Assembly (NCBI GenBank): GCA_016792565.1
Contig: JAEUMK010000025.1
Coordinates: 1 to 64,000, forward strand
Reading direction: 5' to 3'
Origin: Alphaproteobacteria bacterium
GTDB lineage: Bacteria; Pseudomonadota; Alphaproteobacteria; Micropepsales; Micropepsaceae
Length of the DNA stretch: 64,000 nt
In this document: one piece after another, positions 32,246-39,689 of the stretch
How the letters are laid out: every line of letters starts with the position of its first letter
Position numbering within the stretch: position 1 is the stretch's first letter
Notes under the pieces: model-generated
Database searches by the model: none
The model's input: the letters and a program-made list of their open reading frames with translations, nothing else
What the model was told of the DNA's origin: nothing
Position numbers and translations under genes: made by a program

Positions 32246-33001
32246 ATGGCGAAGCGGGCAACGCGTGAAAAGACGCGGAGCTATGAAGACCGGTCCAAGT
32301 CCAAGGTCAGGGCGCTGTTTCCCGAAAAGCCCGCCTGGTCCCCGCTCGATCGCGAAGGCACGGAAGCCCGCGACAAATCCTATGTCCGCAACATCCGCCC
32401 GTGCAGCGACAACCAGCGCCTGCTGCTGGAGGCCATCGACAAGAAGAACGTCGTCGTGGCGCTCGGCCCGGCCGGCACCGGCAAGACCTATCTCGCCATC
32501 GCCAAGGCGGTGGAGGCCTTCGAGGCGGGCCGCATCGGCCGCATCATCCTGACCCGGCCGGCGGTCGAGGCGGGCGAGAATCTGGGCTTCCTGCCCGGCG
32601 CGCTGGAGGACAAGCTCGCCCCCTATCTGCGCCCGCTCTACGATGCGCTCTCCGACCGGCTCGGCGCCAAGCGGCTGAAGCTGCTGCTGTCGGACGGTTC
32701 GATCGAGATCGCCCCCATCGCCTACATGCGCGGCCGCACCCTCAACAACGCCTTCATCGTCATCGACGAGGTGCAGAACTGCACCTACGGCCAGATCAAG
32801 ATGATGCTGACCCGGCTCGGCTGGCACTCGACCATGGTGCTGACCGGCGATCCCGACCAGAGCGATCTGCTGCCGGGCCTCTCGGGCCTCGCCACGGTCG
32901 GCGACAAGCTGTCGACGCTGGAGGATGTCGGCGTCATCCGCCTCGGCGACCGCGACATCGTCCGCCACCCGCTGGTCGCGGGGATGCTGACGGTCCTCTG
33001 A
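32246..33001 (+). CDS. phoH: PhoH family ATPase
   Basis: A 251-residue protein with a Lys/Arg-rich N-terminal segment ([20 protein letters not shown]) and then a PhoH domain. The Walker A is [18 protein letters not shown], the [19 protein letters not shown] region is diagnostic, and Walker B is [17 protein letters not shown] with a [10 protein letters not shown] sensor motif. PhoH proteins are P-loop ATPases, probably RNA-related helicase-like enzymes, whose cellular role remains poorly defined. The start is supported by a GGACG sequence 7 bp upstream. A strong bidirectional terminator follows. The gene is not next to an ybeY-like gene, which is the more usual PhoL context. Confidence 0.93.
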
Positions 33002-33074: not shown

Positions 33075-33416
33075 TCAGTAGACCACGCCGTCGTAGTAGT
33101 AGTAGCCGTCCGAGCAGATGCAGGGCTCGCCGAGCGGCGCATAGCCGTCCATGTAGCAGTAATCGACGCTCGTCACGAAGCAGCGGTCCGAGACCGTCAC
33201 CTGGCCCATGGTCTGCGGCTTGGACTGGCGGCCCTTGGTGAAGTTGCTGCCCGCCTTGGAGAAGCCCTTGGCGTCCTTGGGCAGCGCGCCTTCCTCGATC
33301 TGCGGATTGGGAATCATCGGGCCGCCGGTCAGCGAATCGGCCGCCATGGCCGGCAGAGCCGCAAACGCCACCGCGGCCGCCAGGACGGCGCGGCCGAACT
33401 TGTCAGAAATCATCAT
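33075..33416 (-). CDS. Small secreted Cys/Tyr-rich protein, unknown
   Basis: A 113-residue protein with a Sec signal peptide (GRAVLAAAVAFAALPAMA, cleavage near AMA-AD). The mature N-terminal half is Gly/Pro/Lys-rich. The C-terminal half has four cysteines (SDRCFVTSVDYCYMDGY and PLGEPCICSDGYYYY) and a dense cluster of tyrosines, ending DGVVY. The Cys pattern suggests disulfide bonds in the periplasm or outside the cell. I recognise no family. The ribosome-binding site GGGGAGAC lies a few bases before the Met at 33416; the Met at 33413 is also possible. It is divergent from a Crp-type regulator, and three CRP-like palindromes lie in the shared 249-bp region. Confidence 0.68.
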   Translation of the reverse strand: MMISDKFGRAVLAAAVAFAALPAMAADSLTGGPMIPNPQIEEGALPKDAKGFSKAGSNFTKGRQSKPQTMGQVTVSDRCFVTSVDYCYMDGYAPLGEPCICSDGYYYYDGVVY

Positions 33417-33510
33417 AGAGTGTCTCCCCTCACGGCGCGGCCCCAGCCTGTCGCTGCGTCACTACTCGCGCAGAAAACGTTGCGCCCGAAAAGACTTAGC
33501 CGCGCATCGG

Positions 33511-33532
33511 GGTTGCGCGAAGTGACGCAACC
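33511..33532. repeat. Inverted repeat GGTTGCG-N8-CGCAACC
   Basis: A 7-bp perfect inverted repeat (33511-33517 and 33526-33532, 8-base spacer) in the divergent region upstream of the crp-like gene. It lies on the side of the secreted-protein promoter and is a possible operator for an unknown regulator. Confidence 0.4.
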
Positions 33533-33544
33533 TGCGCGGGAAAA

Positions 33545-33560
33545 TGTGCGCTGGCGCACA
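33545..33560. promoter_or_regulatory. CRP-like palindrome, site 1 (TGTGC-N6-GCACA)
   Basis: A 16-bp perfect palindrome, TGTGCGCTGGCGCACA, a variant of the CRP half-site TGTGA. It lies 106 bp before the crp-like start codon and 129 bp before the divergent secreted-protein start. Confidence 0.5.
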
Positions 33561-33573
33561 TCTTGACCTCGTT

Positions 33574-33589
33574 TGTGATCTGCGTCACA
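33574..33589. promoter_or_regulatory. CRP binding site, site 2 (TGTGA-N6-TCACA)
   Basis: A perfect match to the CRP consensus, TGTGATCTGCGTCACA. It is centred 29 bp from site 1 and 54 bp from site 3, upstream of the crp-like gene. The recognition helix encoded downstream has the Arg-Glu...Arg residues that read TGTGA in the known CRP. Confidence 0.7.
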
Positions 33590-33627
33590 TTAATTTCCGG
33601 GCAATTCAGGCTTTCTCAAGGCGCGAC

Positions 33628-33643
33628 TGTGATTTGGCTCACG
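33628..33643. promoter_or_regulatory. CRP-like site 3 (TGTGA-N6-TCACG)
   Basis: One half-site is consensus (TGTGA at 33628-33632) and the other differs by one base (TCACG). It sits 22 bp before the crp-like start, a place where binding would block transcription or translation start. This fits negative autoregulation. Confidence 0.55.
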
Positions 33644-33665
33644 GTCGAGGGGAGAGGGCGGACAC

Positions 33666-34448
33666 ATGCTGGAATCCAACACCATGACGGCGAACGAGAC
33701 GGGCCACACCGATCACGCCGCCTATGACACATCGCACAGCCACGAAGGCCGGGCGGCGCTGGCCGAGTTCCCGCTGTTCCGCGGCGCGGCGGCGGCGACC
33801 CACGAGATGATCTTCCGCCACGCCAATCTGCGGCGCTGCAACGCGGACGAGGAGATCCTCAGCCGCGACGAGCAGGCAGGCGACGTCTACTTCGTCCTCA
33901 AGGGCGAGGTGCGGATCGTCAACTACTCGGCCTCGGGCCGCGAGGTCGCCTATGCGATCATTCCCGCCGGCGGCTATTTCGGCGAATTGTCGGCCATCGA
34001 CGGCCGTCCGCGCTCGGCCAACGTGCTGGCGGTCGACGACTGCCTGCTGGCGACGCTGACGCCGGGCGCCTTCAAGGAGGTGCTCGCCTCCGACCCCGCC
34101 ATCGCGGCGCGGGTGATGGAGAAGCTGGTGCGCATCATCCGCTCGGCGGACGACCGCATCCTCGATCTGGCGACGCTGTCGGCCTATCAGCGCGTCTATG
34201 TCGAGCTGCTGCGGATGAAGAAGCCCGATCCCGTGCGTCCCAATTCGTGGCTGATCTACCCGCTGCCGACCCAGGCGCAGATCGCGGCGCTCGCCTCGAC
34301 GACGCGCGAGACGGTCGCCCGCGTCCTCTCGCAGCTCAACCACGACCACATCGCGGAGCGCAAATCGAAGACGCTCTACATCCGCGAGCTGGCGAAGCTC
34401 CAGGCGCTCGCCGCCAAGAGCCAGTCCGAGACCGGCAAGCCGAACTGA
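33666..34448 (+). CDS. Crp/Fnr-family transcriptional regulator, Crp-like
   Basis: A 260-residue regulator. The cyclic-nucleotide domain has YFVLKGEVRIVNYSASGRE and the phosphate-binding cassette FGELSAIDGRPRSAN. Glu107, Arg116 and Ser117 match the cAMP-contacting residues of E. coli CRP, with one residue fewer between them. A dimer helix follows. The C-terminal HTH has TQAQIAALASTTRETVARVL, with Arg214-Glu215...Arg219 in the recognition helix as in CRP. No cysteine cluster is present, so it is not an FNR oxygen sensor. The first 30 residues are His/Thr-rich and extra to the family. CRP consensus sites in its own upstream region suggest autoregulation. The start may also be an inner Met at residue 7. 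Confidence 0.9.
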   Translation: MLESNTMTANETGHTDHAAYDTSHSHEGRAALAEFPLFRGAAAATHEMIFRHANLRRCNADEEILSRDEQAGDVYFVLKGEVRIVNYSASGREVAYAIIPAGGYFGELSAIDGRPRSANVLAVDDCLLATLTPGAFKEVLASDPAIAARVMEKLVRIIRSADDRILDLATLSAYQRVYVELLRMKKPDPVRPNSWLIYPLPTQAQIAALASTTRETVARVLSQLNHDHIAERKSKTLYIRELAKLQALAAKSQSETGKPN

Positions 34449-38000: not shown

Positions 38001-38678
38001 ATGAAGAAGTTCCTTCTGACGGCCGTCGGGGCCGCCGCCCTGTGCGCCGGCTCCGCTGCCGCGGACGAGCCCTGGACCATTTCGGGCTCGGTCGCCGCGA
38101 CCAGCAACTACATGTTCCGGGGCATCACGCAGACGCTGGACGATCCGGCGATCCAGGCGGGCGTCACCTTCGCCCACGAGAGCGGCTTCTATGCCGGCTT
38201 CTGGGGGTCGAACATCAATTTCGGCGACGCCGAGGCGGACCTCGAGATCGACGGCTTCATCGGCTATGGCGGCTCGTTCACCGACAGCCTGAGCTACGAC
38301 ATCAACTTCGTCTACTACGCCTATCCCGGATCGCCCGGCGAATGGGACTACGACTTCATGGAGTTCGGCGCCGGCCTGAAATACAGCTTCGAGGGCGGCG
38401 CGATCGGCGTGAAGGCGGCCTACTCGCCGGCCTTCTTCGGCGACACCGGCGACGCCTTCTGGCTGGGCGGCAACGCCTCGATCTCGATCGTCGACTGGCT
38501 CGCCATCAGCGGCAATGTCGGCAAGCAATGGCTGGACGACGAGACGCTGGACTATGTCCACTACGATATCGGCCTGACCGCGACGGTGGAGAACGTGTCG
38601 TTCGACCTGCGCTGGATCGCGACCGACATCGACGGCGACGACGACGAGATCGTCGGCACGGTCTCCTTCGCGTTCTGA
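38001..38678 (+). CDS. TorF-family putative porin (first copy)
   Basis: A 225-residue outer-membrane beta-barrel protein with a Sec signal (KKFLLTAVGAAALCAGSAAA, cleavage near AAA-DE). The family start is visible: WTISGSVAATSNYMFRGITQ, then HESGFYAGFWGSN, YSPAFFGDTGDAFW and VHYDIGLTATVENVS, ending in a terminal Phe (VSFAF) as in outer-membrane proteins. The strands alternate polar and aromatic residues. TorF/Gcw_chp proteins are thought to be porins and their solutes are unknown. It is followed by a strong terminator and a paralogue 297 bp downstream. The long 5' gap after the SDR terminator (about 190 bp) should hold its promoter. Confidence 0.88.
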   Translation: MKKFLLTAVGAAALCAGSAAADEPWTISGSVAATSNYMFRGITQTLDDPAIQAGVTFAHESGFYAGFWGSNINFGDAEADLEIDGFIGYGGSFTDSLSYDINFVYYAYPGSPGEWDYDFMEFGAGLKYSFEGGAIGVKAAYSPAFFGDTGDAFWLGGNASISIVDWLAISGNVGKQWLDDETLDYVHYDIGLTATVENVSFDLRWIATDIDGDDDEIVGTVSFAF

Positions 38679-38975: not shown

Positions 38976-39689
38976 ATGAAGCGCCTTCTCTTGTCGGCTG
39001 CCTGCGCGGCCTCTCTGACCGCCGGCATCGCCGCCGCCGAGTCGCCCTGGTCGGTCGCCGGCACGTTCGGCATCGTCAGCGACTACATGTTCCGCGGCCA
39101 GTCGCAGACCAACCACGACGCCGCGCTGCAGGCCAGCATCACCGTCAGCCACGAGAGCGGCTTCTATGCCGGCCTCTGGGGCTCGAACGTCGATTTCGGC
39201 AACGACACCGATTTCGAACTCGACATCTATGGCGGCTATGCCGGATCGATCGACGACAACACGTCCTTCGATATCGGCCTCGCCTATTACTCGTACCCGA
39301 ACGCCCCGGACGGCACCGAGTACGACTATTTCGAGATGCTGGGCACCGTCACCTATTCGATGGACGCCTTCTCGATCTACGGGAAGATGGCCTATTCGCC
39401 GGAGTTCTTCGGTGACACCGGCGCGGCGTTCTGGCTCGGCACGGGCGTCGGCTACCAGATCTCGGACGACTTCAAGGCGACCGCGAACATCGGCTACCAG
39501 TGGATCGAGGACAACGCCTTCGCCGGCATCGACGACTACTTCCACTACGATCTCGGCGTGACGGCGACCTACGGCATCCTGTCGATCGACCTGCGCTATT
39601 TCGGCACCGACGTGGAAGAGATCGCCTGCTACGGCGGCACGGACCTGTGCGACGAGCGCTTCGTCGGCTCGGCCATCCTGAACTTCTGA
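38976..39689 (+). CDS. TorF-family putative porin (second copy)
   Basis: A 237-residue paralogue of the protein at 38001. Its signal peptide is KRLLLSAACAASLTAGIAAA. It shares SDYMFRGQSQT, HESGFYAGLWGSNVDFG, MAYSPEFFGDTGAAFW and a FHYDLGVTATYG strand, and ends SAILNF. It differs by two extra cysteines near the end (EIACYGGTDLCDERF), which may form a loop disulfide. A beta-barrel outer-membrane protein is expected. AGGAG (AACAGGAGTGAAACG) precedes the Met at 38976 and supports the start. It is flanked by terminators on both sides, so it is a separate unit. Confidence 0.88.
   Translation: MKRLLLSAACAASLTAGIAAAESPWSVAGTFGIVSDYMFRGQSQTNHDAALQASITVSHESGFYAGLWGSNVDFGNDTDFELDIYGGYAGSIDDNTSFDIGLAYYSYPNAPDGTEYDYFEMLGTVTYSMDAFSIYGKMAYSPEFFGDTGAAFWLGTGVGYQISDDFKATANIGYQWIEDNAFAGIDDYFHYDLGVTATYGILSIDLRYFGTDVEEIACYGGTDLCDERFVGSAILNF

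Follow-up and report, generated by a model that had tools for sequence, protein, structure and literature searches.

The window, the whole 64,000-nucleotide stretch of DNA that was analysed, is part of contig C16 of a 3.07-Mb genome. The source genome belongs to the same genus as Alphaproteobacteria bacterium SO-S41 (AP024629), a slow-growing isolate from forest soil that has been described as a possible new order (PMC8297455). At the locus under study, a gene for a CRP-like regulator (crp) and a divergent open reading frame (ORF) are separated by a 249-bp spacer. The following features were identified:

32,246–33,001, + strand: PhoH-like gene (Pfam), upstream of crp in all five genus genomes
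33,075–33,416, − strand: divergent ORF of 113 aa, with a signal-like N-terminus and without a Pfam or NCBIfam family
33,511–33,532, no strand: inverted repeat GGTTGCG-N8-CGCAACC, at chance level in shuffles
33,545–33,560, no strand: CRP-type site 1, TGTGCGCTGGCGCACA, two mismatches to TGTGA-N6-TCACA, itself a near-perfect palindrome
33,574–33,589, no strand: CRP-type site 2, TGTGATCTGCGTCACA, no mismatches, perfect half-sites, an exact match with only one further instance genome-wide
33,606–33,616, + strand: conserved element TCAGGCTTTCT, candidate −10 region, poor match to TATAAT
33,628–33,643, no strand: CRP-type site 3, TGTGATTTGGCTCACG, one mismatch, ending 22 bp before the ATG at 33,666
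33,666–34,448, + strand: CRP-like regulator gene (crp), 260 aa, with cNMP_binding and HTH_Crp_2 domains (Pfam, NCBIfam)

The protein encoded by the divergent ORF is an orphan that contains cysteines and ends in YYYYDGVVY. Further downstream, two adjacent, similar-looking ORFs (38,001–38,678 and 38,976–39,689, both + strand) were observed, the first of which matches the model of a TorF-family putative porin.

The domain assignment of the regulator was based on Pfam matches to an N-terminal cyclic-nucleotide-binding domain (PF00027, E = 1e-18) and a C-terminal Crp-type helix-turn-helix (HTH; PF13545, E = 2.5e-10). Its closest full-length sequences in the PDB are E. coli CRP structures, and its score of 80 bits against NF008732, the NCBIfam equivalog model of E. 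coli CRP, lies below the cut-off of 266. An AlphaFold2 model built from a five-sequence alignment (mean pLDDT of 47) was too poor to search with. We found orthologues in all five genus genomes and in genera g3, g4, g5, and g7 of the family. All 19 orthologues share an identical recognition helix, TRETVARVL. In comparison with the reported RE(T/M)VGR motif (PMC10127613), RETVAR retains the DNA-contacting Arg, Glu, and Arg and replaces Gly with Ala in the 19 orthologues. The CRP recognition residues that the initial annotation had ascribed to the regulator are thus present and conserved.

The three palindromes described in that annotation were recovered at the positions listed above, with two, zero, and one mismatches to TGTGA-N6-TCACA. 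The site at 33,574–33,589 is indeed a perfect consensus, and the ATG at 33,666 agrees with the 22-bp distance given between the last site and the crp start. The genome-wide palindrome scan suggested as a check yielded two exact matches in 3.07 Mb. Allowing up to one mismatch, 19 sites were found, as compared with six for a reversed-pattern control. Fifteen of these 19 near-consensus sites are intergenic as judged by a simple codon-usage gene caller, against a window that is 90% coding (p ~ 2 × 10⁻¹²). Among 20,000 dinucleotide shuffles of 33,417–33,665, none contained a perfect site, and two sites with at most one mismatch occurred in 0.005%. The palindromes are therefore far more than random DNA of this kind would yield, one of the points on which the annotation had proposed that its reading be judged.

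All three sites are conserved upstream of crp in the five available genus genomes, the source included, all of which carry the gene (relatives 81–89% identical). Sites 1 and 2 are spaced by 29–30 bp and sites 2 and 3 by 52–55 bp. In the five-genome promoter alignment, 38 of 48 columns within the sites are invariant, versus 14 of 75 outside them (Fisher p = 2 × 10⁻¹¹), and site 3 is nearly identical across its full 16 bp in every genome. In G006, which represents a sister genus, two perfect sites accompany the orthologue; the first lies upstream and the second overlaps the start codon. For the orthologues of genera g4, g5, and g7, which have the same recognition helix, we did not find a near-consensus site within 400 bp upstream, and the putative autoregulation therefore appears to be limited to part of the lineage. 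In several g5 orthologues (upstream regions L040–L049), another conserved element, ATTAAGGCTTTCCATTC, precedes the start and takes the place of the TCAGGCTTTCT of genus g1. Across the family, the density of exact sites is ~0.70 per Mb in genomes with an orthologue and 0.24 in those without. This difference, summed by hand and without phylogenetic correction, fits the picture.

The autoregulation proposed in the initial annotation is well supported: this phylogenetic footprint and the recognition residues speak for it, as does the lack of a second RE-x3-R protein among the Crp/Fnr proteins found in the genome. We consider it likely that the gene encodes an autoregulated CRP-type regulator whose regulon includes cyclase genes.

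The arrangement of the promoter suggests how such control might work. The alignment of the five genomes has no gaps between site 2 and the element TCAGGCTTTCT, while the distance from the element to site 3 varies. A sigma-70 scan of the crp promoter detected no recognisable hexamers, and the −10 candidate is weak. The element may nevertheless represent the −10 region of a class II promoter, with a predicted start near 33,623. The regulator dimer would bind the TGTGA-N6-TCACA palindromes; its ligand-bound form on site 2, centred at about −41.5 (class II), would precede the weak −10 element at 33,611–33,616. Site 1, at about −70, would aid recruitment, and site 3, at about +13 and just past the predicted start, would limit transcription when the regulator is abundant. 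A low dose would then activate crp and a high dose would repress it, which is the logic reported for the E. coli gene. E. coli CRP activates crp via one site, represses it via another situated 40 bp past the start, and also acts as a repressor of cyaA (PMC3050693). We hold this combination of class II activation with repression from site 3 tentatively, at a little short of even confidence. The sequence itself shows the sites, their conservation, the recognition residues, and the recurrence of the palindrome at cyclase genes; binding, the ligand, the start, and the sign of regulation are inferred.

Its main rival is pure negative autoregulation, in which TTGACC (33,563–33,568) is the −35 element and the −10 lies at about 33,586–33,591, so that site 2 overlies the promoter, site 3 overlies the leader, and the regulator acts solely as its own repressor. 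The TTG at 33,563–33,565 is kept in all five genomes and is ungapped to site 2, and the proximity of site 3 to the crp start codon suits a repressor, as does a site likewise placed a few bases ahead of the called start of a Sel1-repeat gene. However, the would-be −10 (CACATT, CACAGT, CACATC, CACATA, or CACATG) is conserved only within site 2, and the conserved element downstream of site 2 is left without an explanation. We accordingly prefer activation plus repression and regard pure repression as rather unlikely.

The sites might instead be read by another Crp/Fnr paralogue, with the protein of the window binding elsewhere, since five or more further Crp-type HTH proteins are encoded in the genome. 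The helices of those found are VETVSR, RKTVNL, IETVSR, RAVVSR, and PETFSR; some resemble FNR (E-T-x-S-R) and the rest differ in other ways, and none of those read has Arg-Glu-x3-Arg. Among the Crp/Fnr proteins that were found, the RETVAR regulator alone has the CRP recognition triad, and because the others carry different helices, it is the best candidate for a reader of TGTGA. Binding by a paralogue thus seems improbable.

Even less probable is a reading in which the palindromes serve the divergent gene as operators and crp shares them only incidentally. In its favour, the two genes are divergent across the shared spacer, and the initial annotation had proposed control of this small secreted protein. 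No homologue of the ORF was found in the four other genus genomes, yet their crp promoters keep all three sites, which brings this reading close to refutation, and we rejected control of the ORF by the sites. The interval between PhoH and crp varies among the five genomes, holding the divergent ORF here and other sequence in the relatives; since the three sites are kept while the upstream gene content varies, they belong to crp. The ORF is lineage-specific and probably does not account for the sites. Chance occurrence in a GC-rich intergenic region, to which the looser two-mismatch pattern might point because it is at chance level across the entire window (nine observed versus 7.85 expected), is refuted for the trio by its clustering, its conservation in five species, and the intergenic shuffles, and can practically be dismissed.

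The inverted repeat GGTTGCG-N8-CGCAACC, also pointed out in the annotation, is present beside these sites, but ~22% of the shuffled versions of this region contain a 7-bp inverted repeat, and this one was not seen in the relatives. It was consequently rejected as a second operator.

Other genes with CRP-type sites were collected from pattern searches and the stretches around the matches only, read in the source genome and G001; selected sites were also checked in the remaining congeners and G006. The palindrome recurs before cyclic-nucleotide cyclase genes, a point that the initial annotation had missed. Sites of the TGTGATCCAAGTCGCA type lie ~100 bp upstream of a gene for a cyclase-RDD fusion in all five genomes (with two mismatches in G001), and TG[AC]GA-N6-TCACA-type sites occupy the spacer that separates a class III cyclase gene from a divergently oriented Hsp20 gene in all five, in a region where the flanks of the site are also well conserved. 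The fusion gene encodes, in one protein, a class III cyclase domain and an RDD membrane domain (L108:1699–3186). Sites were also detected at the Sel1-repeat gene in four of the five genomes (G000, G001, G003, and G004), at a MacA-like HlyD operon in G000, G001, G004, and G006, and at TonB-receptor genes. A C65 cyclase-like gene has a near-consensus site in the source genome, but none was found in the stretch of its G001 homologue, and the gene was dropped as a conserved target.

Class II spacing may extend to several of these targets. For the cyclase-RDD gene, a TA-N3-T hexamer whose A-N3-T is retained by all five species occurs at a single position, which matches the class II distance from the site, and similar spacing was seen by eye for a DUF2807 gene and in most of the genomes with the MacA operon. 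An automatic test of the MacA promoters gave no position common to all four rows. Since the test was made only after the pattern had been spotted, we regard the pattern as suggestive only.

A conserved block, highly structured and ending in a terminator-like feature, adjoins CRP-like sites in four genomes (L114:1370–1580 and L121:1365–1560, − strand; L150:1395–1600 and L153:1455–1660, + strand). It matched no Rfam family above the cut-off, the best sub-threshold match being the alphaproteobacterial sRNA ar14, and it is possibly an unnamed small RNA.

Our best reading of the target list is a small predicted regulon that includes cyclic-nucleotide synthesis. The conserved targets would constitute a compact regulon, and control of the cyclase genes would wire the regulator and second-messenger synthesis together. 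Six matches to class III cyclase-domain proteins were found in the genome; with several such proteins encoded, the source organism probably makes a cyclic nucleotide.

The initial annotation had also noted the Glu, Arg, and Ser of the cAMP pocket; the view that the pocket is intact holds for only half of it. Of the contacts to phosphate and ribose, the equivalents of Glu72 and Arg82 are present in 19 of 19 orthologues, and that of Ser83 in 18, with Thr in the remaining one. In contrast, the E. coli adenine contacts are replaced in all 19, Thr127 by Ala, Ser, or Cys and Ser128 by Asp. In E. coli CRP, the cAMP-induced shift starts from Thr127 and Ser128 (PMC10127613). The ligand is therefore uncertain, and cAMP is only a candidate. 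We consider it a rather speculative possibility that the family combines E. coli-type DNA reading with a rebuilt base pocket, another signal (cGMP, another nucleotide, or none), and direct control of cyclase genes. The replacement of the adenine contacts is the most interesting point left, and it makes the choice of ligand directly testable.

Among known systems, the FNR/FixK/FtrB-type regulators share the superfamily, and the NCBIfam FixK and FtrB models match the regulator weakly; its scores, however, lie far below the cut-offs of these models, and it does not have an FNR-type helix (E-x-x-S-R). A narrow search of partial literature found nothing on such a circuit in alphaproteobacteria. The likeness to the E. 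coli CRP/crp-cyaA circuit comprises the family by sequence, a recognition helix of the R180/E181/R185 type, and TGTGA-N6-TCACA sites both at its own promoter and near cyclase genes. The regulator is nevertheless distant from E. coli CRP (80 bits against a cut-off of 266) and has Thr127/Ser128 replaced. It differs further in having three sites at its own promoter, a small predicted regulon, and class III cyclases instead of the enterobacterial CyaA.

Clr of Sinorhizobium meliloti (cluster G) is comparable as a CRP relative from the alphaproteobacteria that responds to cyclic nucleotides, in a genome that encodes many class III cyclases, and in its class I/II promoter geometry (PMC10127613). However, Clr has no equivalent of E181, whereas the regulator described here keeps the E. 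coli-type recognition triad, and the TT motif of Clr corresponds to Ala/Ser/Cys-Asp in this family. The studied alphaproteobacterial model reads DNA differently from this regulator, for which the sequence by itself points to an E. coli-like CRP circuit that joins self-control with sites near cyclase genes, in an alphaproteobacterial lineage that has received little study.
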